DNA of 64,000 nt from Bosea sp. BIWAKO-01 (GTDB lineage Bacteria > Pseudomonadota > Alphaproteobacteria > Rhizobiales > Beijerinckiaceae): positions 1,981,501 through 2,045,500 of the forward strand of contig NZ_BCQA01000001.1 in assembly GCF_001748145.1 (NCBI RefSeq), given 5' to 3'. Below the pieces are notes generated by a model that was not told the DNA's origin, ran no database searches, and saw nothing but the letters and a program-made list of their open reading frames with translations. Below, piece by piece: positions 15,490 through 64,000 of this stretch. The translations under genes and the position numbers were made by a program. How positions within the stretch are numbered: position 1 is the first letter of the stretch; the number at the start of each line of letters is the position of its first letter.

Positions 15490-15811
15490 CGCGGTAGGCT
15501 CTCCGGAGCCACAACGGCCTGACGGCCGGCGGCGAGCGCTCCGGAACGGAACAGGACGCTCCCTTCCAACTGCGCTTACGGCTGCGAGCGGCAAGCGCCA
15601 TGCCGCTCGGTCACGCGCCGGAATGAGACGCTGAACGCGGCGTTCAGCCGCGACGCGAAGGGGCCAGGGAATTCGGCCGCAACGACCGACATGTCGGCGT
15701 CCCGTTATGAGACAGCGCCAATCCCGTTCCGCAACTCCTCGGCAGCCGGTCTAATGGTAGTCAGGGTCAAGGGCTGTTCACCGTCCATCGGGCTTGGCGT
15801 GATCCACTGAC

Positions 15812-49162: not shown

Positions 49163-49237
49163 GCGGGCGTAGTTCAGTGGTAGAACGTCAGCTTCCCAAG
49201 CTGAATGTCGTCGGTTCGATCCCGATCGCCCGCTCCA
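49163..49237 (+). tRNA. tRNA-Gly (anticodon CCC)
   Basis: A complete 75-nt cloverleaf including encoded CCA. The acceptor stem is GCGGGCG/CGCCCGC, the D arm contains AGTTCAGTGGTAGA, the anticodon stem is TCAGC/GCTGA with loop TTCCCAA, and the T loop is GGTTCGATCC. It reads GGG codons. Its 3' half is repeated four times downstream and it is the attachment site of the island array. Confidence 0.95.
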
Positions 49238-49370
49238 AATTCACTTTGATTTCAACGGCTTGCCCGAATTTGGCTTTGCGGACTGTCAAAATCTGACGGG
49301 AACAGGGCCGAGTGATTTCAATGTGTTACCGCAGTCCAACCCTCTCGCACGGTTAGTGTCTGCGTACGAC
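49238..49370. repeat. Left-end repeat of segment A
   Basis: The roughly 130 bases after the tRNA CCA are about 90 percent identical to 50793-50926. Both contain CAAAATCTGACGGGAACAGG, GTGATTTCAATGTGTTA and CTCTCGCACGGTTAGTGT. They mark the left ends of two closely related elements. Confidence 0.75.
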
Positions 49371-49946
49371 CCGTCCGAGACATTCGTGGTCAGGCAAGAG
49401 AGGGGCGAGATTTGGCCCATAGCCGACGTGGCAAAGGTCAGCTTCGGGCATTCTGATTGGCCAGCCGGCCAAGGGGCACAGAGTTGGGGCTGGAGCGCTG
49501 CCTGGAAGCGATGCTGGGGTGGTGCCGAAGTCGCGATTGGGGGCAGCATCCGTTCTCGGCAGGCGACCGCTTCTGCTCACGGACCCTGCCGACCCGCGCG
49601 AAAGTTGTGAACCTCGCCGCCGCAGATCAACGCCCGCGCCTTGATGCGGGCATCGAGGACAATGCCGGCGGCATCACAGCTGCAGCAGCAACTCGCGCAG
49701 CCCGGCGACAAACTTGTTCTGATGGCCGTTGCCCGGAAACGGCAGGTGATGCAGCTCGGCCTCGACCCCGGACAGGACCAGGGCAGCCTCGACATGGGCG
49801 CGAACGCAGCCGGCGACGCTGACGATCCGCTCTGGCCGGTACTCTTGGCTGCGAACGCCGCCACGCCGCAAGCGGCATCGTCTCGGTAATGGATTGACGG
49901 TCAGGGGGCATTACTACAGTTGTAGGTCGCTACCGTAGAGATAGGA
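49371..49946. other. Segment A interior with possible gene remnant
   Basis: About 575 bases without an intact gene. A minus-strand stretch near 49871-49674 reads like coding sequence (VEAELHHLPFPGNGHQ, FVAGLRELLLQL) and may be the C-terminal remnant of a lost gene; I cannot name the family. Confidence 0.3.
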
Positions 49947-50375
49947 TCATTGGCGCAAGTAAGCGGCATCAAGAGCCGCATTGCATCGCGCGGAAACCAC
50001 GCGCCTTGCCGTTGTAAGGCATGCGAGAATATTGCCCTGACCCGCCACGATTCCTTTACAACGTCGATTGGCATCCGCGTTGCAGCTCTTCAAAACATTA
50101 GCCGCGCGTGCCGCACATTTTTTTGCTAACTTGTCTTTTTCTTGGGAAAGGCAACTAAGGAGGTCTGTTTTGACCCACCCAGCCGCGTCTGTTTGTACCG
50201 GCACTCCTTTGCCACTGCACCGCTCTTGTAGTTCTTTGCCGCAAGCAAGATCCTCCGCCCGCGCCTTCTGTGCCTCAGCAACGTTGAAGTGGGCATCAGA
50301 GATAAACATTGCAGCAGAGAACGCGATAGCTGTGATGACACCACAACGGCGGAAAGCACCTCGCAGCATTTTCAT
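49947..50375 (-). CDS. Exported cysteine-rich protein
   Basis: A 142-residue protein with a signal peptide (about residues 1-35, ending near NVAEAQ) and a mature part with eight cysteines in spaced groups (LACGKELQERC, LLSCLSQEKDKLAKKC, VLKSCNADANRRC, ILACLTTARRVVSARC). The pattern resembles cysteine-rich GLG1-type repeats found in rhizobial secreted proteins. GGGAGAAGGAAA precedes the ATG. It is the only intact gene in segment A. Function unknown. Confidence 0.7.
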   Translation of the reverse strand: MKMLRGAFRRCGVITAIAFSAAMFISDAHFNVAEAQKARAEDLACGKELQERCSGKGVPVQTDAAGWVKTDLLSCLSQEKDKLAKKCAARAANVLKSCNADANRRCKGIVAGQGNILACLTTARRVVSARCNAALDAAYLRQ

Positions 50376-50745
50376 TTTCCTTCTCCCGCTTTTGGGAGCG
50401 TAGCACGTATCGGCGCACTGCGCATCTCGTCGCCCGCCGTCAGCGCCGGACCACCTCTCGAAAAGCCGATCAAATCAGCAGATTTGACCCAATCCGGATT
50501 CAAGGGCGGCGAGGCCTCACGGCCCGCTCAATCCCGGAACCACCGATCGCATCGCTCGTGGAGCGAAGCAGATCCTGGCAAGGGATTCAAACTCCAGAAG
50601 GGCCAGGCCTTGCCGGGGCCCACATGTCCGCTTCCCACTCTGGCACGCAGATGCCGTCGGGGGGCGTCCACCCCATCACCCATTTAAGAAGCTGCCGGTT
50701 TATGTGCTGGGGAACGCAGGTGAGGGAATTCAATGACTTAGCTCC
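50376..50745. other. Segment A right end
   Basis: 370 bases with no supported gene. The last 45 bases before the tRNA fragment (from about 50701) match the right ends of the other segments: GGGGAACGCAGGTG, then AATTCAATGACTTAGCTCCG. Confidence 0.5.
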
Positions 50746-50792
50746 GCTTCCCAAGCTGAATGTCGTCGGTTCGATCCCGATCGCCCGCTCCA
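50746..50792 (+). repeat. Truncated tRNA-Gly copy 1 (attachment core)
   Basis: 47 bases identical to the tRNA from the anticodon loop (GCTTCCCAAGCTGAATG) to CCA. It lacks the 5' half and so cannot be a tRNA. It forms the A/B junction. Confidence 0.9.
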
Positions 50793-50926
50793 AAACCCCC
50801 TTGATTTCAACGGCCTGACCGAATTTGGCTTTGCTGACCGTCAAAATCTGACGGGAACAGGGTCGAGTGATTTCAATGTGTTACAGCAGTCCACCCCTCT
50901 CGCACGGTTAGTGTCCGCGTACGACC
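50793..50926. repeat. Left-end repeat of segment B, interrupted by an IS
   Basis: It matches the left end of segment A up to GTACGACC, where the IS1182-type element has inserted. The sequence resumes after the IS with GACCCG, as in the uninterrupted copy at 49367-49372. Confidence 0.75.
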
Positions 50927-52475
50927 GAGGCTGTGTGGAAACGGGCTGATCTGGTAGGCTTTCTGGAGCGATCCGAGGGCTTGCATGGCGCGCTACATCG
51001 AAGGCGAGACCCGGCTGCAGAGACTGCTCCTGCCCGACTGTCTTGAGGACTACGTCAGCGAAGATAATCCGGTCCGGGTGGTGGATGTCTTCATCGACGA
51101 ACTCGATCTGGGAACGATGGGCTTTGCCGGCCCGGCCTCGACGGGGCGGCCTGGATACCACCCCGCTACCCTTCTCAAGCTGTACCTCTACGGCTACCTC
51201 AACCAGGTTCAGTCGAGCCGCCGGCTGGAGCGCGAGGCCGGCCGCAACGTCGAGGTGATGTGGCTGACGGGCAAGCTTGCGCCCGACTTCAAGACCATCG
51301 CCGACTTTCGCCGTGACAATGGGGCTGCGATCCGGGCTGCCTGCGCGCAGTTCGTCGTGCTGTGCCGCCAACTCGGCCTTCTGGCAGGCGGCACCGTGGC
51401 CGTGGACGGCAGCCGGTTCAAGGCCGTCAACACGCGCGACAAGAACTTCACGCCCGGCGCGATCCGTCGCCGGATGGAGCAGGTGGAGGCAAGCATCGCA
51501 CGCTATCTGTCGCTGCTCGATACGGCCGACCGGCAGGAGGATGACGTCGCGCAGATGCGCAGCATCCGCCTCAAGGACCGGCTTGATCGCCTGCGTCAGC
51601 AGATGCGTGACCTCCAGGCGATGGACCACGTCGTCGCGGTGGCGCCAGACCGTCAGGTCTCGCTGACCGATCCCGACGCCCGCGCCATGGCCACCAACGG
51701 CAAGGGCACTGGCCTCGTCGGCTACAACGTTCAGGCGGCGGTCGACGCCAAACATCATCTGATCGTGGCTCATGAGGTCACCAACATCGGCCACGACCGC
51801 AGCCAGCTCCGCCAGCATGGGGCGTCAGGCAAAGGATGCGACAGGAGCCGGTGCGCTGACTGTGCTGGCCGATCGCGGCTACTTCTCAGGCGAGGAGGTC
51901 CTGGCCTGCGACGAGATCGGCATCTCCGCCATCGTCCCCAAGCCCCTGACATCAGGGGCCAAAGCCGACGGGCGCTGGGGCAAGCAGGACTTCACCTACG
52001 ATGCTCCGAGCGACACCTATCGCTGTCCCGCCGGCGAGACGCTCACATGGCGCTTCTCATCGGTCGAGAAGGATCTGACACTCCATACCTACTGGGCCGA
52101 CGGCTGCGGAGCCTGCCTGGTCAAAGACCAATGCACCACCGGCAAGCAGCGCCGCATCAAGCGCTGGGAGCACGAGGTGGTGATCGAGGCCATGCAGCGC
52201 CGGCTCGATCGCATGCCCGACGCCATGCGGATCCGAAGGCGCACGGTCGAGCACGTCTTCGGCACGATCAAGGACTGGATGGGCCGAAGTCACTTCCTGA
52301 CCCGCCACCTCCCCAATGTCGGAACCGAGATGAGCCTCCATGTGCTGGCCTACAATCTCAAGCGGGCCATCGCCATCCTCGGCGCGGCGACGTTGATGAA
52401 GGCCATGAGAGCCTGACCCTCAGACCCTGTCGCATCGTCAGAGCACGACCCTGAAAGACGTTTCCACACGGCCTC
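50927..52475 (+). mobile_element. IS1182-family insertion sequence (about 1.55 kb)
   Basis: Terminal inverted repeats GAGGCTGTGTGGAAACG (50927-50943) and its complement at 52459-52475 match in 16 of 17 positions. A 4-base duplication GACC flanks it (50923-50926 and 52476-52479). The equivalent uninterrupted site in segment A reads GTACGACCCG, which confirms the boundaries. It carries one transposase gene, which is frameshifted. Confidence 0.85.
50985..52416 (+). pseudogene. IS1182-family transposase, frameshifted
   Basis: The first part (50985 to about 51815) has the IS1182 N-terminal helix-turn-helix region (GRPGYHPATLLKLYLYGYLN, SSRRLEREAGRNVEVMWLTG) and the first DDE aspartate in VAVDGSRFKAVN. 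The second part is in the next frame (to 52416) and has LADRGYFSGEE with the second aspartate, the Cys-rich CGACLVKDQCTTGKQRR and the glutamate in TVEHVFGTIKDWMG. A single inserted base near 51810, in CAGCTCCGCCAGC, separates them. It is probably inactive; programmed frameshifting is not typical of this family and no slippery sequence is seen. Confidence 0.85.
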
Positions 52476-52548
52476 GACCCGTTGCGGACTTCGCGCGTCG
52501 CTGCAACGATACATAACAATCCGATTGCCCTCGTTTGGATGGTTTGTG

Positions 52549-52878
52549 ATGCTCGGTTGGTTCAAGCAGACTCTATCAAGATCAGAAGGGCTGAATGCCT
52601 CCTTGGGAGACGTTGTATTCGAATCAAATCCGGTTTGGGGTCGATACAGCGGTAGATCATTCATGGTATGGAGGATAAAGAAAGCGCTAGACGGGCGATT
52701 TTTTCTAGGCGCTAAACTTCTTCCAGATTCTTATGCCGGCCCCGAAGGAGCGGTCGAGAATTTTATCAACTTTGATTTGCAATCAGCCGAACAGCTGAGG
52801 TCTGATCTAGATTACTGCATTGCAGAGTTAAAACGGCGAATTCAACAAAACGCCGCGACTCAACCAATCCGCACCTGA
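52549..52878 (+). CDS. Hypothetical protein in segment B
   Basis: A 109-residue soluble protein (MLGWFKQTLS...), with FMVWRIKKALDGRFFLGAKL and a C-terminal helix LRSDLDYCIAELKRRIQQ. I recognise no family. Base composition is clearly AT-richer than in neighbouring core genes, pointing to foreign origin. TTG at 52525 is an alternative start. With the IS removed it is the only gene of a segment of about 0.7 kb. Confidence 0.55.
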   Translation: MLGWFKQTLSRSEGLNASLGDVVFESNPVWGRYSGRSFMVWRIKKALDGRFFLGAKLLPDSYAGPEGAVENFINFDLQSAEQLRSDLDYCIAELKRRIQQNAATQPIRT

Positions 52879-53014
52879 GCAGCCTGGAGAAACCAGCGAG
52901 GTCCAGTCTCCACCGATAACCGACTTTGGCAATGACAGCCCTAATCTCGCTTGCGGCTGCTTTGTCGCTGTCCTATTGGGGGACGCAGGCGCGCAAAATC
53001 AACGACTTAGCTCC

Positions 53015-53060
53015 GCTTCCCAAGCTGAAGTCGTCGGTTCGATCCCGATCGCCCGCTCCA
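53015..53060 (+). repeat. Truncated tRNA-Gly copy 2 (attachment core)
   Basis: 46 bases matching the tRNA 3' half, with one T missing after CTGAA. Preceded by GGGGGACGCAGG and ATCAACGACTTAGCTCC, related to copies 1 and 3. It forms the B/C junction. Confidence 0.88.
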
Positions 53061-53324
53061 AAAATCTATTTTATTACAGTACGTTAGCGCAAACTTGCAT
53101 CGAGCGATGCCAGTAAGTCGAACTCTGTGGCAGGGCTTGGCAGGGAACGTGAGCGTGTAATTTCAATGGGTTAAGTAGGCGCCGCGCAAGGGGCTGGTCG
53201 CCTTGACCGACTCCGAAACGCGGCAATCGGTTGCAGTCTCTTTCGTCGGGCGGGTCCGCTTACGACCCATAACAGCCATTCGCTTCCCGCGTTCGCGACG
53301 GCGTTGATCGCGGTCAGCGCTCAT
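53061..53324. repeat. Left end of segment C
   Basis: Contains the arm-like direct repeat GGCAGGG...GGCAGGGAAC and AATTTCAATGGGTTAAG about 100 bases after the tRNA CCA. It matches the left end of segment D (56532-56640) in spacing and sequence. No gene seen. Confidence 0.6.
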
Positions 53325-53615
53325 TCATCGAATGCTGGCGAACAGAAAATAGCCAATGCTGGCAACAATCAACAACGCTGCCGTCACGGCGAGAAATCTG
53401 AGCAGGGATCGGCGTTCAATGTCCGATACCGATCTATTATCGCCGCTGCGAGGGAGGAACTTTACGAGAACGAAGATCAGCAAGAAAAAGAGCGCATAAA
53501 GCGCCAACGCCCATCCGGCGCCCCAAGCGGCCATCACGCATAGCATAACGATAAACCAGAAAACCTTGAAAAGCCTTTCGCCGATAGACCGGCTTGCTCT
53601 CCCGCTCCCTAGCAT
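53325..53615 (-). CDS. Small membrane protein in segment C
   Basis: A 96-residue protein with two to three hydrophobic helices (LFKVFWFIVMLCVMAAWG, LALYALFFLLIFVLV, LLRFLAVTAALLIVASIGYF) and a basic linker. No family recognised. ATG at 53660 would give a longer form. Its right boundary overlaps AT-richer DNA typical of the array. Confidence 0.45.
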   Translation of the reverse strand: MLGSGRASRSIGERLFKVFWFIVMLCVMAAWGAGWALALYALFFLLIFVLVKFLPRSGDNRSVSDIERRSLLRFLAVTAALLIVASIGYFLFASIR

Positions 53616-53660
53616 CAGGCTCTTCCATTCACGCGCAGCACTGCAACCGCAGTTGCGCAC

Positions 53661-53970
53661 GCCCCTGACAACTCGACAAGGTCCGCTTTCGACCCAACTG
53701 CGACATTCGCGGCGAGCCGCTGAACGGTCAAAGGTGGCCCTTTTGTATGGACCGGCTGCGTTTCACAACGGTTGGGCGCGATAACGGAAGTCGCTCATAT
53801 GTATCCGGCCTACTGATCGGCTCGCGGGCCGTGGCCTCGTTGGGAATACGCGCGCACCTTTGGCCTCATTACCAGATCGGCCGTTCAGCGGCCAAAAGGG
53901 CCACCAGGCTCTGGGTGCGCATATTGAATCCGTTCCATGCCTGCTCCGTCGCGAACTCCTTGGGAGGCTG
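53661..53970. other. Region between membrane protein gene and IS110 transposase
   Basis: 310 bases with no supported gene. Part is probably the downstream non-coding end of the IS110 element, whose boundary I cannot place because this family lacks standard inverted repeats. Confidence 0.35.
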
Positions 53971-55032
53971 CTAGATGGCGAGCGCCTCCTCGTGTGTGTC
54001 GAACGACCGTCCGTTGCGCAAAACGCTCCAGCTGATGCGAGCGAGCTTGTTGGCAAGGGCTGTCGCAAGCTTGTTGCGGTGAAGCCGCGGAGCCGCCTCC
54101 TTCAACCAGGTTCCGAAGCTGAACTTCTCCCAGTTCTGCGGTCTCATGATGATGACCTTCGCGGCTTGGATGAACAGCATTCTCAGATAGGTGTTGCCCT
54201 GTTTCGAGATGCGCCCGAGCACGGTTCTCCCGCCGGTGCTGTATTGCCGCGGGACGAGACCGAGCCAGGCGCCAAAATCGCGGCCTCGGTCGAAGGCTTC
54301 ACCGTCGCCGATCGCGGCGACCAGCGCCGTCGAGATGATTGGCCCGACACCTGGAACGCTCATGAGCCGTGTGCAAGCAGCCTGCTCGGCCGCGATCTTC
54401 TCGATCTCGGCGGTGATCGTCTCGATCCGCTCGTCGAGCCACAGCCAGTCCTCGTAGAGGCCGACGATCAGATCGCTCATACGAGGCGAGATCTCATCGG
54501 CACGGTTCTTCAGGATGTCGAAGAGCGAGGTGCGCAGGGCCCGCAACCCCGGCCGAATGGCGATACCCTGCTCGATCAGGAACGCCCGGATCTGGTTGAC
54601 CGTTGCGGTTCGGCGCGAGACCAGCCGCGACCGGATGCGGTGGTAGGCCTGCAAGTCGAGTTCGTCCTGCGTCTTCTCCCGCACCACCCGCAGGTTCGGT
54701 CGCAGCGCGGCCTCCGCGATGGCCTCGGCATCGTTGTAGTCGTTCTTCTGCCCCTTCGCGAAAGGCTTGGCGTACTTCGCCGGAATGATGCGGGGCTCAT
54801 GGCCGAGCCTGCGCAGCGTACGGGCAACGAAATGCGCACTTAGGCACGCCTCCATTCCGACGATGCAGGCAGGAAGGATCTTGAAGGTCTCTTCGAGCGC
54901 CAAGCGTCGGATCTTGCGCCGGAAGGCGATCTTGCCGTTCGCGTCGAAGCCGACGAGGTGAAAGACGTCCTTGCCGATATCGATGCCGATAACGGTGAGT
55001 TCTGCTTCAGTGTTCGAAGTCGTCCTGGTCAT
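53971..55032 (-). CDS. IS110-family transposase (DEDD recombinase)
   Basis: A 353-residue intact transposase. The N-terminal RuvC-like domain has the first acidic residue in VIGIDIGKDVFHLVGFD (D18), a Glu in IVGMEACLS and the DYNDAEAIAEAAL pair. A coiled coil leads to the Tnp_20 domain with MSVPGVGPIISTALVAAIGD and FGAWLGLVPRQYSTGG, which carries the serine region. It is full-length and may be active. IS110 elements are guided by a non-coding bridge RNA made from their own ends. Confidence 0.93.
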   Translation of the reverse strand: MTRTTSNTEAELTVIGIDIGKDVFHLVGFDANGKIAFRRKIRRLALEETFKILPACIVGMEACLSAHFVARTLRRLGHEPRIIPAKYAKPFAKGQKNDYNDAEAIAEAALRPNLRVVREKTQDELDLQAYHRIRSRLVSRRTATVNQIRAFLIEQGIAIRPGLRALRTSLFDILKNRADEISPRMSDLIVGLYEDWLWLDERIETITAEIEKIAAEQAACTRLMSVPGVGPIISTALVAAIGDGEAFDRGRDFGAWLGLVPRQYSTGGRTVLGRISKQGNTYLRMLFIQAAKVIIMRPQNWEKFSFGTWLKEAAPRLHRNKLATALANKLARISWSVLRNGRSFDTHEEALAI

Positions 55033-55034
55033 GG

Positions 55035-55087
55035 GGCTGCTCCGGCTTGACGGTAAGGCCGCAGCTTACGCGGCCGCGGGAGCAGCC
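55035..55087. ncRNA. Structured non-coding end of IS110 element, candidate bridge-RNA region
   Basis: Just upstream of the transposase ATG a 9-bp perfect pair GGCTGCTCC/GGAGCAGCC encloses a second perfect hairpin GGCCGC/GCGGCC (55057-55075). In the IS110 group the bridge RNA is encoded upstream of the gene (left end). This is position and structure evidence only; the guide loops and the full extent are not assigned. Confidence 0.35.
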
Positions 55088-55639
55088 GGTCCATCCCATT
55101 ACCCGACGTTTGGGATGTCTCCTTTCGGGCAGCCTGGCTGGCGCAGCGCGATACATTTCTTGCAGCGAACAATGCACCTAACCGGCCACCCAAGTCTCTT
55201 GCGGGCGGCCGGCTGGTCGGTCTCCGCGAGGGGGGCGGAGAAACGGTTCCTCCGAGCCTGAGATTCCAGCCTCTGGGGGCTCGCGAGGGCGTTCCGGACA
55301 GCACCGGCAAGATGCAGACGACGACGCCCACGAACGCCATCAGCGGGCCTCCTGTGGCCAGTCATGCGGCCTGCCTCGATCCGGTACGACCACTGCGAGC
55401 GGCGGACGACGCCACTCGCGTGGCTGGCGCTGGGACCTGCCTTCCTCTATCATCACGGGTGATTGAGCGCCTGGCCGTTTTTATGCTGGACTTAGTCGAG
55501 ACGCGCGTCGGCACGCCCATCAGTGCGTGGTCATCGCGTGACATCAAACCAAACCGCTACAGCCTGATCCTCCGAGCCGTCACCGAGATGCGGTGAGGAC
55601 CCTGACGCATGCAGGCGTTTTTCAAGAGGAGGAACACTC
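55088..55639. other. Segment C central non-coding stretch
   Basis: About 550 bases without a convincing gene. The left part probably belongs to the IS110 element. GAGGAGGAAC immediately before the Cache-domain gene is a strong ribosome site. Confidence 0.4.
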
Positions 55640-56161
55640 ATGAAACTCAAGCAAATTGCTATCGGCATCTCGACAGTCATGTACCTCATCGGGGCGGCGA
55701 TGTTTCTACCGAACGTTGGCCAAGCTCAGGATGCGAAGGTGAAGACGGCGATGGAGCTCTTGGAGTCGATGGCGAACAAGCTCGGTCCGCCAAGGATCGA
55801 AGGGACCGATGCTGTCGCTGGTAAGGCGGTGCCTGCCATTTATTTCGGTTCAACCAAGATGAACAACAGTTTCGACTTGGTTGATGAAGTCGTGAAGCAA
55901 GCTCAGGGGACGGCCACGATCTTCGTAAAGAGCGGTGACGAGTATGTTCGCGTCGCCACCAACGTGAAAAAGGATGATGGCTCGCGAGCGATCGGAACGA
56001 TTCTGGATCCCAAAGGCAAAGCCATCGAGTTCATCAGGAAAGACGAAGCGTTCTATGGAGAGGTGGACATCCTCGGCAAACCCTACGTCGCAGGGTACAA
56101 GCCGATACGGGATTCGTCGAAAAACGTGATCGGTATCTACTACGTAGGCTATTTGAAGTAG
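55640..56161 (+). CDS. Secreted stand-alone Cache-domain protein
   Basis: A 173-residue protein with a signal peptide (about 1-30, ending VGQAQ) and a single Cache-type sensor fold: AIYFGSTKMNNSFDLVDEV, TATIFVKSGDEYVRVATNV, GTILDPKGKAIEFIRKDEAF and YGEVDILGKPYVAGYKPIRD. These match the Cache3/Cache2 ligand domains of chemoreceptors, but no transmembrane or signalling domain follows. It is therefore a free periplasmic ligand-binding protein. It is preceded by GAGGAGGAAC and has AT-richer codon use than core genes. Confidence 0.82.
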   Translation: MKLKQIAIGISTVMYLIGAAMFLPNVGQAQDAKVKTAMELLESMANKLGPPRIEGTDAVAGKAVPAIYFGSTKMNNSFDLVDEVVKQAQGTATIFVKSGDEYVRVATNVKKDDGSRAIGTILDPKGKAIEFIRKDEAFYGEVDILGKPYVAGYKPIRDSSKNVIGIYYVGYLK

Positions 56162-56484
56162 CCCCGTCCGCTGCCCGAACGTGAAGCTGGGGCCGAGTTC
56201 CCGAACGGGACGATGGGTCATCGCGGCGTCGCGAATGGTGAAGCGTGAGCATCACCGAAGATCGGCTCAGGCCGGCATAGCGAGGCGGACCGTTCGACCG
56301 AACGTACCTTGCGCTCGGCTTCGTCAGCAGCAGCATCAGACGGATCACCCGAGCCAATGACACATAGCGGCGAGGATCATTTCGGAGCAGGCTAAGCCCG
56401 TAAGCCGCGCGGTCCAATGAGCTGCGCGGCTGCCGGTTTTTACGTTTGGGGAACACAGGTGCGGTAATTCAACGACTTAGCTCC
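56162..56484. other. Segment C right end
   Basis: About 320 bases without a convincing gene. The last part carries the shared right-end sequence: GCTGCCGGTTT, then GGGGAACACAGGTGCGG and AATTCAACGACTTAGCTCCG, very close to the right end of segment A. Confidence 0.5.
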
Positions 56485-56531
56485 GCTTCCCAAGCTGAAT
56501 GTCGTCGGTTCGATCTCGATCGCCCGCTCCA
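56485..56531 (+). repeat. Truncated tRNA-Gly copy 3 (attachment core)
   Basis: 47 bases matching the tRNA 3' half with one change (GATCTCGAT for GATCCCGAT). It forms the C/D junction. The left end of segment D that follows has GGCATGG...GGCAGGGAAC and TTTTCAATTGTTTAAG. Confidence 0.88.
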
Positions 56532-56666
56532 AAACTTTTTGATTACAGAACGTTAGAGTTTTTTCGGGCGGCGTCGGTCATTCGAACTCGCCGGCATGGT
56601 CTGGCAGGGAACGCCGGCGGGCATTTTCAATTGTTTAAGAATTGGCCCTCGTATCGCGCAGGCCTC

Positions 56667-57878
56667 TCAGCCGGTGCGTTCGGCGATGGCGGTCCCTGCG
56701 GCCCAGCCTGATGACCACGCCCATTGGAAGTTGTAGCCACCAAGCCAGCCCGTGACGTCGACCACTTCACCGATGAAGTACAGGCCCTCGACGGTCCTTG
56801 TTTCCATCGTCCGTGAGTTCAGACCGGACGTATCGACGCCACCGAGCGTCACCTCCGCGGTCCGGTATCCTTCCGATCCGATGGGCATGACCTCCCAGCC
56901 GTGAATGGTGGAAGCGATCGCGGCGAGCTTCTTGTCGCTTGCGTCGCCGATGGGCCCCGTCCAACCATGGGCATCTGCGAGATAAGCGGCCAATCGCTTC
57001 GGCAGAAGGTCACCAAGCGTATTTGCGATGCTTCTGCGGCCGTTTTCCTGTCTGGACGCGCGCAAGTCGGCGAACACGTCCTGCGTGGGCAGGAACGCGA
57101 TCCTGATCGGCTCCTTCTCGCGCCAATAGGACGAAGTCTGCAGAATCGCGGGACCGGAAAGACCGCGATGCGTGAACAGCAGCGCCTCATCGAATGTTGT
57201 CTTGCCGCACGAGACCCGTACATCTGCGGCGACGCCGGCAAGGTCGCGAAACCCGGCAAGAACGTCTTCACCGAATGTCAGCGGTACCAGGGCTGGGCGC
57301 GTTTCCGTGACCGCCAGACCAAACTGGCCGGCGATCTGGTAGCCAAGGCTGGATGCCCCCATTTTCGGGATGGATTTCCCCCCGGACGCTACGACAAAAT
57401 GCCGGCACTGGATTTTTGCAGCCCCATCGCCACCAAGCGCGATTGCAAAGCCGTCATCGATCCGCTCGAGGCTTTCCAGTGTGGTTCTGAGGCGCAGTTC
57501 GCATGCCGCGCGCGCCATCTCATCCAACAGCATTGCGATAATTTGCTTGGCGGAATCATCGCAGAAGAGCTGCCCGAGCGTCTTTTCGTGATAGGCAATG
57601 CGGTGCTTTTCGACCAACGCAACGAAATCATGCTGCGTGTATCGGCCAAGCGCAGATTTCGCGAAATGGGGATTGTTCGAGAGAAAATTGCGCGCGCCTG
57701 TTCCGATATTGGTGAAGTTGCAGCGGCCTCCGCCGGAAATACGGATTTTTTCCCCGGGTGCTTTGGCATGATCGACAATGAGAACACGCCCGCCGCGCGC
57801 TGCGGCATGGATGGCGCACATCATTCCAGCAGCACCGGCGCCCAGAATGACAGTGTCGAAACGCTCAATCGGCATCAA
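56667..57878 (-). CDS. NAD(P)/FAD-dependent oxidoreductase, HI0933/BaiN family
   Basis: A 403-residue flavoprotein. The N-terminal FAD loop is VILGAGAAGMMCAIHAA, followed by KIRISGGGRCNFTN, the family hallmark. It also has FVVASGGKSIPKMGASSLGY, FTHRGLSGPAILQ, and the C-terminal GLYFIGEVVDVTGWLGGYN with WAWSSGW. The family includes BaiN, a bile-acid dehydroxylation reductase, but most members have no known substrate. It is intact and is the only gene of segment D. Confidence 0.9.
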   Translation of the reverse strand: MMPIERFDTVILGAGAAGMMCAIHAAARGGRVLIVDHAKAPGEKIRISGGGRCNFTNIGTGARNFLSNNPHFAKSALGRYTQHDFVALVEKHRIAYHEKTLGQLFCDDSAKQIIAMLLDEMARAACELRLRTTLESLERIDDGFAIALGGDGAAKIQCRHFVVASGGKSIPKMGASSLGYQIAGQFGLAVTETRPALVPLTFGEDVLAGFRDLAGVAADVRVSCGKTTFDEALLFTHRGLSGPAILQTSSYWREKEPIRIAFLPTQDVFADLRASRQENGRRSIANTLGDLLPKRLAAYLADAHGWTGPIGDASDKKLAAIASTIHGWEVMPIGSEGYRTAEVTLGGVDTSGLNSRTMETRTVEGLYFIGEVVDVTGWLGGYNFQWAWSSGWAAGTAIAERTG

Positions 57879-58077
57879 ATGCTGCTAGCCTCAGAACAGC
57901 CCTGACGGGCGCTGCGCAGCGTTCCCGATGACATCGCGCAACGCTCCGCCTCGGGTAGATGATCCGCGACCGTCCATCAACAGATGACACTACGATCGCG
58001 CGGTTTATCGCGCCCCGGCAATCCATTCGGCCTTTCCGTTAGGGAGTGCGAAGGACGACATTCAACGTCCTGGCACC
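57879..58077. other. Segment D right end
   Basis: 200 bases with no gene. The stretch before the tRNA fragment (GGGAGTGCGAAGGACGACATTC, given here as GGGAGTGCGAAG then GACATTCAACG) is a diverged form of the shared right end. Confidence 0.4.
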
Positions 58078-58125
58078 GCTTCCAAACGCTGAATGTCGTC
58101 GGTTCGATCCCGATCGCCCGCTCCA
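58078..58125 (+). repeat. Truncated tRNA-Gly copy 4 (outermost attachment core)
   Basis: 48 bases matching the tRNA 3' half, with changes in the anticodon region (TTCCAAACGC for TTCCCAAGC) and an exact match from GCTGAATG to CCA. It is the rightmost junction; the DNA beyond it should be the original chromosome. Confidence 0.88.
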
Positions 58126-58640
58126 AAAATCCCTTGGAACTCAGCTCGCTTAACGACCTCCCGCTGAGCTCGCGTGCCGCCGGCCCTGTTCAGGATGTTT
58201 CCCCGCAGCCCGTGTCAGCAGCGCACTTGAACGCCACAGCTCGGCCTCTTCCGGTGGCGCCGCGAGACTGGCGTGCCGGCCTTCGTGGCCACGTCCGAAA
58301 ATGACAAGGTCGCAGCCTGAGCGCGCGTCACCGAACCCGGTGGCTTAGTCGGCGCCGATCCAGAGGCCGTCGCGTGAGCTCGATCGTTGCGCGCATGGCG
58401 GCGAGAGCCGCGTGCGTGTCGTTCCCCTGATCCCACGGAGGCCGCGAAGCCATTCCCGGTGGGTTTCGAGACCGGCCTTCCGCACACGTGATCGTTCTTG
58501 CTTGCCAAATCGCAAAGAAGGCCGCGGCGAACGGCAGTAGGAGCGCCTTGGTTCCCGATGCATCGCGACAAGGGGGCCGGCAGCGTGGCCCGGCAGTTCC
58601 GGCACCTGTCCATCTTCGCTTGCAGAAGAAGGGTGAACGC
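58126..58640. other. norC upstream region
   Basis: 515 bases between the end of the array and norC. No supported gene. It contains an NnrR-like box at 58502-58515; the rest shows no feature I can name. Confidence 0.5.
58502..58515. promoter_or_regulatory. NnrR-like binding site upstream of norC
   Basis: TTGCCAAATCGCAA matches the palindromic NnrR consensus TTGCG-N4-CGCAA at 9 of 10 positions. It lies 126 bases before the norC ATG. NnrR is the CRP/FNR-family nitric-oxide regulator that activates nor and nir genes in Alphaproteobacteria. Confidence 0.65.
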
Positions 58641-59093
58641 ATGGCCGAACGTCTGACAAAGGCGGGAGCCCGAAATGTCTTCTACGGCGGATCGATTTTC
58701 TTCTTCGCCATCTTCGTCGGGCTCACCGCACACAGCCACTGGTTCATGCGGACGAAGTCCACCGATGAGTCGACCCTGACCCCCGCGGTCGCCCGCGGCA
58801 AGCATGTCTGGGAGCGCAATTCCTGCATCAACTGCCACACGCTTCTCGGCGAAGGCGCCTATTTCGCGCCCGAACTCGGCAATGTCTGGAAGCGCTACGG
58901 CGGCGACAAGGACGCGGCCGGCGCGCGCGAGAGTCTGAAGGCCTGGATGCAGGCTCAGCCGACCGGGATCGAGGGGCGGCGCCAGATGCCGCAATTCAAC
59001 CTGACCGAGCAGGAACTCAAGGATCTGGCCGATTTCCTCGAATGGACGAGCCGGATCAAGACCCAGAACTGGCCGCCCAACGATGCCGGCTGA
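58641..59093 (+). CDS. norC: Nitric oxide reductase subunit C (cytochrome c)
   Basis: A 150-residue membrane-anchored c-type cytochrome that delivers electrons to NorB. An N-terminal span lies at 13-31. The heme-binding motif is CINCH (C62, C65, H66), and the distal Met ligand lies in RRQMPQF (M116). The start at MAERLTK is chosen by homology and GAAGGGTG upstream; an open extension covers the regulatory region. It is the first gene of norCBQD. Confidence 0.96.
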   Translation: MAERLTKAGARNVFYGGSIFFFAIFVGLTAHSHWFMRTKSTDESTLTPAVARGKHVWERNSCINCHTLLGEGAYFAPELGNVWKRYGGDKDAAGARESLKAWMQAQPTGIEGRRQMPQFNLTEQELKDLADFLEWTSRIKTQNWPPNDAG

Positions 59094-59115
59094 GACGTCG
59101 CGACAGGAGAAAGCC

Positions 59116-60480
59116 ATGCCAGGCTACAACACGACGAGATACGAGACCCAGAATGTCGCGATGCTCTATTTCTACGGGGCGCTCGCCCTGTTCATCGCGC
59201 AGGTCGCCTTCGGGGTCGTGGCGGGACTGATCTATGTCCTGCCCAACACGCTTTCGGTCGTCCTGCCCTTCAACATCGTGCGCATGATCCACACCAACGC
59301 GCTGGTTGTGTGGCTGCTGCTCGGCTTCATGGGCGCGACCTATTACCTGCTGCCCGAGGAGGCGCAGACAGAATTGTACAGCCGCAAGATCGCCGTCATT
59401 CAGTTCTGGCTGTTCTTCGTGGCGGCCGCGGTCGCCGTGGTCGGCTATCTCTTCCGCATCCACGAGGGGCGCGAATTCCTCGAGCAGCCCTTCGCGATCA
59501 AGATCGGCATCGTCGTCGTCGTGCTGATGTTCCTGTTCAACATCACCATGACTTCACTGAAGGGCCGCAAGACCACCGTCACCAATATCCTGCTCTTCGG
59601 CATGTGGGGCCTGGCGATCTTCTTCCTCTTCGCCTTCTACAACCCCGCCAATCTTGCGCTCGACAAGATGTATTGGTGGTACGTCATCCATCTCTGGGTG
59701 GAGGGCGTCTGGGAGCTGATCATGGCCTCGGTGCTGGCCTTCCTGATGATCAAGCTCAATGGCGTCGACCGCGAAGTGGTCGAGAAGTGGCTCTACGTCA
59801 TCGTCGGTCTCGCCCTGTTTTCCGGCATCCTCGGCACCGGCCATCACTATTACTGGATTGGAGCGCCGGGATACTGGCAGTGGATCGGCTCGCTGTTCTC
59901 CACGCTGGAGGTCGCGCCCTTCTTCACGATGGTGATCTTCACCTTCCAGATGACCTGGAAGGCCGGCCGCAATCACCCCAACAGGGCAGCGCTCCTGTGG
60001 TCGATCGGCTGCTCGGTGATGGCCTTCTTCGGCGCTGGCGTCTGGGGCTTCCTGCACACGCTGTCCTCGGTCAACTACTACACCCACGGCACGCAGGTCA
60101 CGGCCGCCCACGGCCACCTCGCCTTCTTCGGCGCCTATGTGATGCTGAACCTCGCGGTGATGGCTTACGCCATTCCGGAGCTGAAGGGCCGCGCGCCCTA
60201 CAACCAGTGGCTCTCGATCGTGAGCTTCTGGATGATGTGCACGGCCATGTCGGTCATGACCTTCGCGCTGACCTTTGCCGGCGTGGTGCAGGTCCATCTG
60301 CAGCGCGTCCTGGGCCAGTCCTTCATGGAGGTCCAGGACCAGATGGCCCTGTTCTACTGGATCCGGCTCGGCTCCGGCGTGGTGGTGGTGATCTCGGCGC
60401 TGATGTTCGTCTGGGCCGTACTGGTGCCCGGCCGTGAGCGCAGCCGCGCGCCGGTCGCGCTCGCCCAGCCGGCGGAATGA
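59116..60480 (+). CDS. norB: Nitric oxide reductase subunit B
   Basis: A 454-residue heme-copper-oxidase-superfamily protein with 12 spans that reduces two NO to N2O at a heme b3/non-heme iron centre in the inner membrane. Heme and FeB ligands are visible: His in IVRMIHTN (H59), the HH pair in GTGHHYYW (H243-H244), and HGTQVTAAHGH with the proximal histidines. The Glu residues expected near FeB are in the EGVWELIMA segment. It lies 22 bases after norC, with AGGAG before the ATG. It is the short NorCB (cNor) type, not the quinol-dependent qNor. Confidence 0.97.
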   Translation: MPGYNTTRYETQNVAMLYFYGALALFIAQVAFGVVAGLIYVLPNTLSVVLPFNIVRMIHTNALVVWLLLGFMGATYYLLPEEAQTELYSRKIAVIQFWLFFVAAAVAVVGYLFRIHEGREFLEQPFAIKIGIVVVVLMFLFNITMTSLKGRKTTVTNILLFGMWGLAIFFLFAFYNPANLALDKMYWWYVIHLWVEGVWELIMASVLAFLMIKLNGVDREVVEKWLYVIVGLALFSGILGTGHHYYWIGAPGYWQWIGSLFSTLEVAPFFTMVIFTFQMTWKAGRNHPNRAALLWSIGCSVMAFFGAGVWGFLHTLSSVNYYTHGTQVTAAHGHLAFFGAYVMLNLAVMAYAIPELKGRAPYNQWLSIVSFWMMCTAMSVMTFALTFAGVVQVHLQRVLGQSFMEVQDQMALFYWIRLGSGVVVVISALMFVWAVLVPGRERSRAPVALAQPAE

Positions 60481-60487
60481 TGCCGGG

Positions 60488-60514
60488 GCCCACCGGCCTT
60501 CCGGGCCGGTGGGC
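60488..60514 (+). terminator. Hairpin between norB and norQ
   Basis: Perfect 11-bp stem GCCCACCGGCC/GGCCGGTGGGC with a 5-base loop and no T-run. It probably stabilises norCB mRNA or partly blocks read-through, lowering norQD expression. Confidence 0.5.
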
Positions 60515-60544
60515 GGCTGCCTCCCTGTTCCAAGGATTTCTGCG

Positions 60545-61369
60545 ATGAACATGATCCCGCGCCCGCCCGTCCCGGCTTCCGCCGCCGAGGTGCACGACAT
60601 CGCCGCCTATACCGCTTCCGGCAACGAGCGCTTCCTGTTCGAGAAGGCCTGGGAGCGGCGTCTGCCGCTGCTGCTCAAAGGGCCGACGGGCTCGGGCAAG
60701 ACACGCTTCGTCGCCCATATGGCCGCGAAACTCGGCCTGCCGCTGTTCACGGTGTCGTGCCATGACGATCTCTCCGCCGCCGACCTGACCGGTCGCTATC
60801 TGCTCAAGGGCGGCGAGACGGTGTGGACGGACGGACCGCTGACCCGGGCCGTGCGCGAGGGAGGGCTGTGCTATCTCGACGAGATCGTCGAGGCTCGCAA
60901 GGACGTAGCGGTCGTGCTGCATCCGCTCACCGACGACCGGCGTCTCCTGCCGCTGGAGCGCACCGGTGAGCTGCTGGCCGCTCCGCCCTCCTTCATGATC
61001 GTGGTGTCCTACAACCCCGGCTACCAGAACCTGCTCAAGAACCTGAAGCCCTCGACCCGCCAGCGCTTCGTCTCGATCAGCTTCGACTTCCTGCCGCGCG
61101 AGCAGGAGATCGGCGTCGTGGCGAAGGAAAGCGGGCTCGCCGAAGGCTCTGTCGCGCCGCTGGTCGACCTCGCCCGGCGCCTGCGCAGGCTGAAGGGGCA
61201 GGACATCGAGGAAGGTGTCTCGACCCGCCTTGTCGTCTATGCCGCCACCCTGCTCGCCGCCGGCCTGCCGCTCTCCGAGGCGGTGATGGCCGCCATCATA
61301 GAGCCACTGACCGACGAGCCAGAGGTCAAGGCCGGGCTCGTCGAGATTGCCCGCGCGGTTCTCGTCTAG
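60545..61369 (+). CDS. norQ: NorQ, MoxR-type AAA+ ATPase for NO reductase maturation
   Basis: A 274-residue AAA+ protein. Walker A is GPTGSGKT (46-53), Walker B is LCYLDE (108-113), and sensor and arginine-finger regions lie around VVSYNPGYQNL and KPSTRQRF. With NorD it inserts the non-heme iron of NorB. The start at MNMIPRPP is set by homology. It lies 10 bases before norD. Confidence 0.95.
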   Translation: MNMIPRPPVPASAAEVHDIAAYTASGNERFLFEKAWERRLPLLLKGPTGSGKTRFVAHMAAKLGLPLFTVSCHDDLSAADLTGRYLLKGGETVWTDGPLTRAVREGGLCYLDEIVEARKDVAVVLHPLTDDRRLLPLERTGELLAAPPSFMIVVSYNPGYQNLLKNLKPSTRQRFVSISFDFLPREQEIGVVAKESGLAEGSVAPLVDLARRLRRLKGQDIEEGVSTRLVVYAATLLAAGLPLSEAVMAAIIEPLTDEPEVKAGLVEIARAVLV

Positions 61370-61379
61370 GAGCTTTCCG

Positions 61380-63272
61380 ATGCTGGATTTCCTCGAGCTG
61401 GAGGAGACGGTCGGGCGCTTCTGGCACAAGCTGGTCGGCGAGACCGCGAGCTTGCCGCATCATCCGCAGGCGGCGGTGACGCTGGCGAGCATGGCGCCGA
61501 CACTGGCCGTCTGCTTTCGCGGATTTGGCGGCGAGCCCGGGGTCCGGATCGTGCCAGCCCGCGAGCGCGTTGCCGGTCATCGGCTCAATCTGCGCCAGCG
61601 CGTCGGCCTCGGTGAGGAACGGCTGGCACAGGCGCTGCGCACGCCGGACAGCCTGCAGCTTCCGGCCCGGATCGCACTGTTCCCCGAGCCCGAACTGAAC
61701 CGCGACCTCTATGTCTGGCTCGCGGCCTGCATGGCCGTCATGGCGCCCGCAACCCTACCGGAGGGCGACCCGCTTCATCGCGACATCGCGCTCATCGCGG
61801 CGGCAAGCCGTCTGGTGGCCAAGGTCCTGACGCGTTTCCCCGGCCTCGCCCCGACCTATCGGCGCCTCGCCGCGATGCTTCTCGCAACCCGGAGCCGAAA
61901 GGGTCTGCCGGCGACCGAGGAGCGGATCGAGGCAGTGATCCGCGCGCTCCTGCGTGGTGAGGACATCGACCTCGACGCCGGGAGTTGGCCGGCCAGGGCG
62001 CCGGCCGGCTATCTGCCGGCGCTGGGAGTGCCGCTCTGGCCGCTGGCAAGCGCGGCCGCCCCGGCGCGCGCGCGGCGGCGCGACGAGGAGCAGTCGGGAC
62101 CTGCCACTGCCCGCTCCGAAGCGCAGGAGAAGGCCTGCGCCGCCAGCCGCGACGAGACCGCCGAGGAGTGGCGCGAGCGCAGCCCCTTCATCCTCAACCG
62201 CTTCGAGAAGATCCTGGCGATGTCCGAGATGGTCGCCGTCGATCGCCCGTCCGACGACAGCGAGGAGCACGAGCCCGAGGCCGCGGACGAACTCGACGAC
62301 ATGGTGCTGAGCGAGCGCAAGGGCCGCCCGGCCTCACGCTTCCGCTTCGATCTCGACCTGCCGCCGGAGGCGATCGACGAGGCCGCCCTCACCGGGACCC
62401 TGACCTACCCGGAATGGGACTTCCGGAGCGCCTCCTATCGCGAGGACTACTGCCGGGTCCTTGCCGCGACGGCCCGGCAGGAGCTGGAACCGCCCGAGCA
62501 GGACGCGGCGACACGCGCGCTGGTGCGCCAGGTGCGCCGTCAGTTCGAGGCGCTGCGCCCCTTGCGTGTCCCGCAACGTGGGCAGATCGACGGCCCCGAT
62601 CTCGATCTGGACGCCGTCGTGCGCCGGCAGGCCGAGCTCGCCGCCGGCGGGCCCGGCAGTGAGCGGATCCATCTGGCGACACGGCCGCAGGCGCATGACC
62701 TTGCCGTGACGACGCTGATGGATATCTCGCTCTCCACCGATTCCTGGTTCGACGACCTGCGCGTGCTCGACGTCGAGAAGCAGGCCCTCACTGTCTTCGC
62801 CCATGGCCTGGCCGCCTGCGGCGACCGGCACGAGATCCTGACATTCACCTCGCGCCGCCGCGACTGGGTCCGGATCGAAACGCTGAAGCGCTTCGACGAG
62901 GCCATGGGACCGGCTGTCGAGGCGCGCATCGCCGCGCTGCGGCCCGGATACTACACCCGCATCGGCACGGCGATCCGCCATGCCGCCGCCGGGCTCAGGG
63001 CGCGGCCCGACCGGCGAAAGCTGCTGCTCGTCCTTACCGACGGCAAGCCCAACGATATCGACCACTACGAGGGCCGTTTCGCCATGGAGGACACGCGCAT
63101 GGCGGTGATCGAGGCGCGCCGCGCCGGCATCTGCGTCTTTGCCGTGACGGTGGACCGCGAGTCGCGCGCCTATATCCCGCATCTCTTCGGCCGCAACGGC
63201 CACGCCGTGGTCTCGAAGCTCGACCGCCTGCCGGCGGCCCTGCCGGCGATCTATCGCGCACTCGCAGCCTGA
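61380..63272 (+). CDS. norD: NorD, von Willebrand A domain activation protein
   Basis: A 630-residue partner of NorQ. The N-terminal half is helical and variable, with an acidic linker (about 280-315). The C-terminal vWA domain starts near residue 440. Its metal-ion-dependent adhesion site reads DISLSTDS, and LLLVLTDGKPNDIDHYEG supplies the second metal ligand. NorQD act as a chelatase-like pair on NorCB. The length is typical for the family. Confidence 0.94.
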   Translation: MLDFLELEETVGRFWHKLVGETASLPHHPQAAVTLASMAPTLAVCFRGFGGEPGVRIVPARERVAGHRLNLRQRVGLGEERLAQALRTPDSLQLPARIALFPEPELNRDLYVWLAACMAVMAPATLPEGDPLHRDIALIAAASRLVAKVLTRFPGLAPTYRRLAAMLLATRSRKGLPATEERIEAVIRALLRGEDIDLDAGSWPARAPAGYLPALGVPLWPLASAAAPARARRRDEEQSGPATARSEAQEKACAASRDETAEEWRERSPFILNRFEKILAMSEMVAVDRPSDDSEEHEPEAADELDDMVLSERKGRPASRFRFDLDLPPEAIDEAALTGTLTYPEWDFRSASYREDYCRVLAATARQELEPPEQDAATRALVRQVRRQFEALRPLRVPQRGQIDGPDLDLDAVVRRQAELAAGGPGSERIHLATRPQAHDLAVTTLMDISLSTDSWFDDLRVLDVEKQALTVFAHGLAACGDRHEILTFTSRRRDWVRIETLKRFDEAMGPAVEARIAALRPGYYTRIGTAIRHAAAGLRARPDRRKLLLVLTDGKPNDIDHYEGRFAMEDTRMAVIEARRAGICVFAVTVDRESRAYIPHLFGRNGHAVVSKLDRLPAALPAIYRALAA

Positions 63273-63275
63273 GCT

Positions 63276-63305
63276 TGATCCCGAAAAGCGGGAACCGGTT
63301 TCCGG
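63276..63305. repeat. Rhizobial-type palindromic repeat
   Basis: TCCCG-AAAAG-CGGGA followed by AACCGGTTTCCGG forms two adjacent palindromes just after norD. A closely similar unit is scattered through many Hyphomicrobiales genomes (from memory). It may act as a transcript end. Confidence 0.5.
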
Positions 63306-63342
63306 AGAAGGTCACGCGACATCACGCTCTGAGGAGAACGCC

Positions 63343-63498
63343 ATGACAGACGCCCAGATGGGCCTTGCCATCGCCACGCCGGCCATCATCGCGATGGCCG
63401 CAATGCTCTATCGCATGGGCGTGTTGCAGAAGGGCGGCGTCGCGGCAGCCGTGCTGATGTCGCTCGCCATTGCCGCCATGCTCTTCCTCGAACAGTGA
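63343..63498 (+). CDS. Small two-span membrane protein in nor cluster (51 aa)
   Basis: A 51-residue frame with two hydrophobic segments (GLAIATPAIIAMAAMLYRMG and AAVLMSLAIAAMLFLEQ) joined by a short LQKGG turn. GAGGAGAACGCC gives a strong ribosome site 7 bases before the ATG. It follows norD by 70 bases and has core-like codon use. No family is recognised; it may be an accessory subunit or stabiliser of a membrane complex. Confidence 0.65.
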   Translation: MTDAQMGLAIATPAIIAMAAMLYRMGVLQKGGVAAAVLMSLAIAAMLFLEQ

Positions 63499-63601
63499 GG
63501 CAGCCAAGCGCGCGCTGTTTGAGCCTCGACAAATTGCCACGGGCACGACCCGGCTAGTCTTCATGATACCCCGCATTCGGGGCCGAAACGGAGCCGGGAC
63601 C

Positions 63602-63904
63602 ATGACCACCCCACCCCTCGAACCCCTGGACGTGCACGCAATCCCGCACTCCATCCGCCATGCCACGATCTTCGGGATCCTGGAGCGTCTGGCCCCCGGC
63701 GAAGCCTTCAGGATCGTCAACGACCACGACCCCGCACCACTGCGACGGCAGATCGAGGCTCGCTATCCCGGCGCCTATTCCTGGGCCTATATCGTACCGG
63801 GGCCGGAGCTGTGGCAGGTCGAGATCGGCCGCAACGAAGCCGATGTCGGCACCGCCGATTGTGGCGGCCATGATGAAGGCCATTCCTGCACCTGCGGCCA
63901 CTGA
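63602..63904 (+). CDS. DUF2249 domain protein with Cys/His tail
   Basis: A 100-residue protein. The DUF2249 fold (LDVHAIPHSIRHATIFGILE, EAFRIVNDHDPAPLRRQIEA, WQVEIGRN) resembles TusA-like small domains and often occurs near denitrification and respiratory genes. The C-terminal tail ADCGGHDEGHSCTCGH has three Cys and three His and probably binds a metal. The start at MTTPPLE is chosen by homology. A role in Nor or heme assembly is only suggested by location. Confidence 0.8.
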   Translation: MTTPPLEPLDVHAIPHSIRHATIFGILERLAPGEAFRIVNDHDPAPLRRQIEARYPGAYSWAYIVPGPELWQVEIGRNEADVGTADCGGHDEGHSCTCGH

Positions 63905-63930
63905 AGCCGCCCGACCGGGAGACCACAGCC

Positions 63931-64000
63931 ATGCCGATGGCATCGCTGTCGCGCTGGACGATGAGCTATTTCGCAGCCGCGCTCGCCTTCCTGCTCGCGG
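63931..64000 (+). CDS. Membrane protein, 3'-truncated by window edge
   Basis: An open frame starts with ATG at 63931 after GGGAG and runs off the window. The visible 23 residues (MPMASLSRWTMSYFAAALAF then LLA) begin a membrane helix. It follows the DUF2249 gene by 26 bases in the same direction and probably belongs to the same operon. Too short to name. Confidence 0.55.
   Translation, partial: MPMASLSRWTMSYFAAALAFLLA

Follow-up and report, generated by a model that had tools for sequence, protein, structure and literature searches.

In the present study, we examined a tandem array of small elements at the tRNA-Gly(CCC) gene of Bosea sp. BIWAKO-01, within a stretch of 64,000 nucleotides (the window, C1:1981501-2045500 of a 7.33-Mb genome in two contigs). 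Four units, E1 to E4, follow the intact tRNA gene one behind the other, and each of them ends in a partial copy of that gene. We believe, with a probability of about 0.56, that E1-E4 are integrase-less cassettes resembling cis-mobilizable elements (CIMEs), which were recombined in trans by the tyrosine integrase of phages using the same tRNA-Gly and are now stranded. This integrase of the tRNA-Gly islands is labelled IntG here.

The intact tRNA-Gly(CCC), the integration target, lies at 49163..49237 on the plus strand (ARAGORN), and a direct-repeat search of the window gave five in-register copies, one intact and four partial, all on the plus strand. Copy 1 (50746..50792) runs from the anticodon arm to CCA, copy 2 (53015..53060) is one base shorter, copy 3 (56485..56531) has one mismatch and copy 4 occupies 58078..58125; the extents of all four partial copies were also read by eye. 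These copies, which a sequence-only reading had already described, close the elements E1 (49238..50792, 1555 bp), E2 (50793..53060, 2268 bp, or 719 bp without an IS1182-like insertion sequence (IS)), E3 (53061..56531, 3471 bp) and E4 (56532..58125, 1594 bp), all given on the plus strand. The same reading had counted four elements and had taken copy 4 as their outer boundary. The four units in the window were confirmed, but copy 4 is not the boundary, because a sixth copy lies about 19 kb beyond it and the chromosomal flank begins only thereafter. The 25-base 3' end of the tRNA has six matches in the genome (up to three mismatches), five of them in the window and the sixth at C1:2058538-2058562, corresponding to about 77038-77062 on the window scale. 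With a 31-base pattern this weaker copy extends over 77032-77062 with two mismatches, and the flank carrying the SCO gene starts in BIWAKO-01 only after 77062. Hence at least one more element, E5, follows copy 4, starting in the window (58126..64000, plus strand) and running to about 77062 outside it.

Next to the cores, the units have conserved attachment ends. The right ends of the cassettes contain GGGAAC-N13-TTCAAYGNNTTA, or a degenerate form of it, shortly upstream of the core, and the left ends contain a similar 31-bp sequence about 60-115 bp downstream of the core. On the plus strand of the window, left-end arms are located at 49298..49328 in E1 (GGGAAC-N13-TTCAATGTGTTA), 50853..50883 in E2, 53143..53173 in E3 and, with one mismatch, 56607..56637 in E4. 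Right-end arms are located at 50710..50740 in E1 (its start 52 bp upstream of the 31-base core pattern), 52979..53009 in E2 (two mismatches) and 56449..56479 in E3; the five arms without mismatch were obtained by pattern search. These arms are not a product of chance, because the pattern GGGAAC-N8..20-TTCAAYGNNTTA gave five exact matches in the window and none in 100 shuffles. The five are also the only exact matches in the BIWAKO-01 genome. Thus cores and arms on both sides give E1-E4 flanks like the attL and attR of a CIME, with a putative att function.

The comparison was extended to 67 genomes of the genus, BIWAKO-01 included (G0xx denotes genomes and Lxxx fetched stretches). Eleven elements with ends of three types, A to C, were found in five of them: four in BIWAKO-01, three in G048, two in G054 and one each in G051 and G063. 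Type A ends belong to E2, G048 e3 and G051 e1, type B ends to E3, G048 e1 and the first G054 element, and type C ends to E4, G048 e2, the second G054 element and G063 e1. E1 looks like a fusion of two units, because its left end is of type A and its right end of type B. The conserved length is 126-138 bp for A left, 188-213 bp for B left, 151-154 bp for A right and 100-103 bp for B right ends; in addition, 113 bp of the B left end are 70% like the C left end. Of 24 distinct right ends with a partial core, 17 have GGGAAC (at most one mismatch) starting 50-54 bp upstream of the core; among the controls, the motif was so placed in 2/47 contexts of the intact tRNA and in 2.4% of the shuffled ends. 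By this criterion six of the eleven cassette right ends are exact and three have one mismatch. A search that was independent of the core detected whole A left ends in three genomes (two in BIWAKO-01, one each in G048 and G051) and whole B left ends also in three (BIWAKO-01, G054 and G048), all at tRNA-Gly copies. Shorter left-end pieces were seen on BIWAKO-01 contig C2, in the E4 left end and in G005.

The tRNA-Gly 3' pattern of 31 bases (up to three mismatches) was present in 65/67 genomes, with two or more copies in 15. A set of 40 stretches, later 15 more, and one beside the window were fetched. They cover all the multi-match genomes save G040, and, for the 50 single-match genomes, wide stretches for 18 and some more, with about 1.5 kb on each side for some; the remaining ones were covered only by the arm-pattern, IntG, HI0933 and left-end searches. 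The region of the SCO gene after the last core is the same in BIWAKO-01, G054, G048, G051, G063, G006 and G021. Empty sites, in which this flank adjoins the intact tRNA, were found in G038, G066 (about 20 extra bases) and G018 (145 extra). In the close group of G048, G051, G063 and G006, in which the SCO gene is 95.8-96.7% identical, the arrays differ at core borders: G048 carries B-C-A, G051 A, G063 C, and G006 an unrelated island of 13.7 kb. In G006, the left-end searches gave neither type A nor type B, and an HI0933 ortholog was not found either. Since the tRNA is left intact, its 3' part stands at the far end and empty sites exist, as for elements of tRNA-targeting integrases, site-specific integration at tRNA-Gly(CCC) is well supported. 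The proposal of repeated insertion at one tRNA, giving an array without integrase, is likewise supported by relatives with empty, singly and multiply occupied sites. The sequence-only reading had also named an old duplication as the outcome to be expected if all relatives had the same 9 kb and no empty sites; instead, occupancy varies among related genomes. Tandem duplication of tRNA fragments without any integration would account for direct repeats at one locus, but the segments between the copies are mostly unrelated apart from their ends and are gone at empty sites, and we regard this explanation as highly improbable.

The contents of the units, apart from type C, change between similar ends. 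E3 and the B element of G054 are 97% identical over the first 188 bp and have no further match at E 1e-4; G054 is split between contigs inside this element, so that the two B ends, left and right, may come from different units. G048 e3 and G051 e1 have 130-134 bp on the left and 151-152 bp on the right in common with E2 and nothing between, the left edge of similarity in E2 coinciding with the edge of its IS. Generally, the middles of type A and B elements are unrelated at E 1e-4, except for G048 e3 and G051 e1, which are 95% identical over 1295 bp. All four type C elements carry the same gene.

The Pfam scan covered ten open reading frames (ORFs) of the window, eight of them in E1-E4. Among these eight there was no integrase, relaxase or packaging gene, IS transposases apart, so that integration and transfer genes are lacking in them as in a CIME. 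Ten Phage_integrase matches (nine over the cut-off) were obtained in the BIWAKO-01 genome, all elsewhere, and the nearest is about 0.47-0.49 Mb away. For E1-E4, this bears out the earlier remark that the array is without an integrase. In five of the 67 genomes (G046, G064, G027, G065 and G011), islands at the same tRNA have an IntG gene 87-93 bp from it, the copy of G011 being cut by a contig end. The IntG protein of G046 matches PHROG 1 (integrase) at 7.8e-17 and Pfam Phage_integrase at 1.2e-5, just under the cut-off. Fragments of IntG were found 74-103 bp from the tRNA or a core in G021, G029, G023, G057, G062, G026 and G013. Overall, 18/67 genomes gave some IntG match, and four full-length relatives (38-46% identity) lie elsewhere. 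BIWAKO-01 and the four other cassette genomes gave none, and the array appears stranded because no IntG homolog was detected in the BIWAKO-01 genome.

The main alternative is that the units are decayed prophages or islands, which arose by internal deletions of complete integrase-bearing elements and form an old graveyard (CIMEs by deletion). Decay at this tRNA is real, as the IntG fragments beside tRNA or core in seven genomes indicate. Furthermore, the first 53 bases of E5 are 81% identical to the left end of an integrase-bearing island and E5 matches this end no further, which again points to decay at the site. Type-specific left and right ends also mostly co-occur, as they would with one complete ancestor for each type. 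In E1-E4, however, Pfam gave no piece of an integrase, and the IntG search gave none in the vicinity of the cassettes, unlike in decayed islands. Cassettes of like type lose similarity at about the same place near their ends, which random deletion would not produce, in a small sample of four A and three B left ends. Because the units are compact, have different cargo between like ends and show none of the integrase traces retained by the decayed islands, we favor cassettes moved in trans over shrunken prophages, and decay seems to us rather unlikely as the origin of E1-E4. The sequence-only reading had left the choice between decayed islands and non-autonomous elements; E1-E4, with their conserved ends and different cargo, lean to the latter, and E5 looks like a decayed island.

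IntG is proposed as the enzyme because the cassettes share both the target and the right arms with the IntG islands. In the right ends of these islands GGGAAC is as far from the core as in cassettes, and their left ends have GTTCCC three times with fixed spacing in most loci examined. The right-arm pattern was also found in three IMG/VR contigs (L132, L131/L149 and L130). The first of these departs from the tRNA soon after the arm match. In L131/L149, the right arm, core, left arms (triple GTTCCC) and IntG stand in a row, the order expected of an attP or of two tandem islands at their junction. In L130, phage genes (terminase, primase-like) precede a right end and a core, after which a C-left-end remnant and HI0933 follow. 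Of 124 IntG relatives found in IMG/VR, 80 were kept and the stretch behind the gene was read in 38; among these, several whose tRNA ends differ appear to have different repeats, by impression and not by count.

As to the enzyme, the circular intermediate and the order of events, we infer the following course. A cassette would consist of a small amount of cargo between two attachment ends, the right one of which includes the 3' copy of tRNA-Gly. Circular cassettes would be joined to the tRNA, or to one of its partial copies, by a tyrosine integrase acting in trans, the most likely source being temperate phages with the same tRNA and GGGAAC arms; each joining would rebuild a core, so that units stack up. 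Gain and loss at core borders would then lead to different arrays in close relatives. Since only the ends would be needed in cis, the cargo would be free to change as the ends are kept, and the array would stay stranded until an IntG phage arrives.

Several observations weigh against this reading. The left ends of cassettes have one GGGAAC in direct orientation, compared with the three GTTCCC of the phage ends. The right ends of BIWAKO-01 E4 and of the G063 element fail the GGGAAC criterion. Among the 67 genomes, those with an IntG match include none with a two-ended cassette, and whole A or B left ends are likewise absent from them; nearest to co-residence are IntG fragments upstream of the HI0933 gene in G029, G023 and G062, and L130 with its phage right end beside the C-left-end remnant. 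Neither a circular form nor an attP was seen for any cassette, and the 117-aa ORF of E2 gave no homolog in one large homology search.

The difference in the left ends would also be explained by mobilization in trans through an integrase other than IntG, for example a plasmid-borne one or one of an integrative and conjugative element (ICE), acting on GGGAAC-N13-TTCAATGNNTTA arms on both sides. Only in cassettes did both sides show the 31-bp arm in one and the same orientation, and integrases with Arm-DNA-bind_3 also use tRNA-Gly in G014 and G062. The right ends of these two, however, lack GGGAAC, and the right arms of the cassettes are those of the IntG islands. Moreover, the exact arm occurs in 3/67 genomes and outside arrays only at one stray place of G063; this match (C1:492767, L094) was discarded as it has no core and no ORF like the ten BIWAKO-01 integrases. 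In IMG/VR, the left arm gave two chance-like contigs (L133 and L134, one stretch on opposite strands without tRNA-Gly core, which were rejected), and a stricter right-arm pattern gave no contig. In the plasmid records there was no match to A and B left ends. We judge a different integrase to be improbable and retain IntG as the candidate helper.

The HI0933-like flavoprotein gene of E4 (56667-57878, minus strand; Pfam, NCBIfam TIGR00275) adds points of both kinds. An ortholog (at least 84% identity) was found in 16/67 genomes: between cores in four, beside the intact tRNA (35-167 bp) in six, on another contig in two, further downstream on the same contig in three and behind a partial core in one (G062). 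In G003 it lies between the tRNA and the SCO flank with no distal core, and in G031, G047 and G009 another 1.5-1.8 kb separates it from SCO. Unfavorable to delivery as a cassette, G009, G031, G047 and G055, with HI0933 beside the intact tRNA, lack any trace of a C left end, and in G003 the trace is weak, a 10-base match to one of four C left ends only. The C-left-end remnant of L130 was equalled in 0/500 shuffles for three of four comparisons and in 10/500 for the fourth. Where HI0933 adjoins the tRNA without C ends, either the ends were lost or a resident gene was captured; because of these genomes, the gene of E4 may be a captured resident. Delivery as an ordinary cassette, or as one with eroded ends, was considered, but the remnant is supported in L130 only and weakly in G003, so capture may apply instead.

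At four-fold sites, the identity of HI0933 compared with that of SCO was 79.4% (214 sites) vs 59.4% (101 sites) for BIWAKO-01-G048, 78.6% vs 60.2% for BIWAKO-01-G063, 75.3% vs 57.8% for G048-G054 and 68.2% vs 56.3% for BIWAKO-01-G003. The values were 78.7% vs 77.7% for BIWAKO-01-G054 and 72.2% vs 74.4% for G048-G003, and the relation is reversed for G048-G063 (84.7% vs 90.1%), which speaks against exchange. These figures suggest that HI0933 may have been exchanged between lineages, as judged against one background gene (SCO) only. The dcd gene was rejected as a second background gene, as its homolog in the G048 group is only 50% identical. The HI0933 gene of the G054 cassette (L058, G054:C99:581-1785) is split over two frames.

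Among known systems, the closest precedent is the ssrA islands of Dehalococcoides. As described in PMC3146451, these islands lie in tandem, each delimited by the 3' end of the same RNA gene; an integration module is missing in 15 of them, and the authors state that these might be cis-mobilizable elements. They involve a serine recombinase, the tmRNA gene and rdhA cargo. The array of Bosea lies at a tRNA-Gly, for which relatives have islands with a tyrosine integrase; its units are smaller, and none of them bears an integrase. CIMEs of ICEs, in the outline given there, keep attL and attR and lack integration and transfer genes (PMC3146451). They also undergo accretion with neighbours. In Bosea, the likely partner is a phage and not an ICE, and the genes per unit are few. 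With no integrase, relaxase or conjugation gene of their own in the Pfam-scanned ORFs, and integrases elsewhere only, E1-E4 do not fall among ICEs or integrative and mobilizable elements. As to descent from such an element, which would be expected of a CIME, the scanned ORFs showed no conjugation gene and the right ends resemble those of phage-like islands. Clusters of attC sites lacking integron integrases (CALINs), satellites and miniature inverted-repeat transposable elements (MITEs) are counted in PMC11389934 among elements needing helpers. CALINs, as presented there, are similar in forming arrays of small gene units dependent on an outside integrase (PMC11389934); the Bosea units are bounded by 3' fragments of a tRNA and not by attC sites, so we do not place them among integrons or CALINs, no dedicated attC model having been run. 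Phage satellites, such as phage-inducible chromosomal islands (PICIs) and Tycheposons, are also integrated and depend on a helper phage according to this source (PMC11389934). The eight ORFs of E1-E4 included no integrase and no packaging or capsid gene (Pfam only, no phage-family library), and hence they were not assigned to satellites. A literature search, mostly at the abstract level, gave no account of this array or of integrase-less tRNA-Gly units in Bosea.

The remaining cargo is diverse. E1 carries a Cys-rich gene of 142 aa (49947-50375, minus strand; Pfam). In E2, the 117-aa ORF without Pfam family lies at 52525-52878 (plus strand). The IS1182-like transposase of E2 (50985-52454) is in two pieces with overlapping frames, and the IS1182-like element starts at base 135 of E2, close to the limit of the conserved A left end. 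E3 contains a 111-aa ORF without Pfam family (53325-53660, minus strand), an IS110-family transposase (53971-55032, minus strand; Pfam), the ends of that IS being undefined, and a single-Cache protein gene (55640-56161, plus strand; Pfam). Two intergenic blocks with TCCGYTT(A/T)CGACCC flank the small ORF of E3 (53179-53268 and 53682-53743). The same two blocks, 93% and 82% alike, flank a different small ORF on contig C2 (L245 9485-9574 and 10222-10277) without tRNA cores, and form a second, nested repeat arrangement. Exact GTCYGCTTNCGACCCA has two genome matches only, both in E3. The GTCCGCTTNCGACCCR repeats were considered as a second recombination site for cargo exchange and set aside for too few cases.

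In E5, a cytochrome c (58488-59093; Pfam) is followed by a heme-copper-oxidase-like protein (59083-60480) and an AAA-ATPase-like protein (60434-61369), which match cytochrome-oxidase subunit I and AAA-ATPase models, respectively, below the cut-off, and by a 641-aa ORF without NCBIfam match (61347-63272). Beyond the window, FGE-sulfatase-like, NnrS, UbiD and flavoprotein genes are present, and in our reading the genes of E5 include a nitric oxide reductase (nor-like) cluster. At the same tRNA in relatives, an element of about 16.8 kb with an IntG-type integrase (G027:C1:222145-238976; L065, L066) is small for a phage and is perhaps a satellite; its proteins resemble, by eye, the terminase and primase-like proteins of L130. 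A 7-kb island in G021 (L061, G021:C1:4263368-4270461) has integrase fragments beside the tRNA and encodes a 1203-aa RTX-repeat protein and a 705-aa FG-GAP protein. Elsewhere in the window, ARAGORN reported a 91-base tRNA-Ala(CGC) at 15531-15621 on the minus strand, which has an odd length and is possibly a false positive.

In a broader and more tentative interpretation, tRNA-Gly(CCC) might act like an integron without an integron integrase, in which any tRNA-Gly phage integrase would add, fuse and remove small cassettes and move them from species to species, the cargo being interchangeable between fixed att ends. It may also capture resident genes such as HI0933, and the attachment chemistry of prophages would then serve as a gene-capture platform. 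Genomic islands without a recombinase are often dismissed as decay. With conserved ends, varied cargo, empty sites and, in sister species, a candidate helper, these small units allow a direct test of whether phage integrases still act on islands that lack an integrase of their own. Should this be so, hotspots at tRNA genes would hold a cassette-like gene exchange that is hidden from integrase-based annotation.

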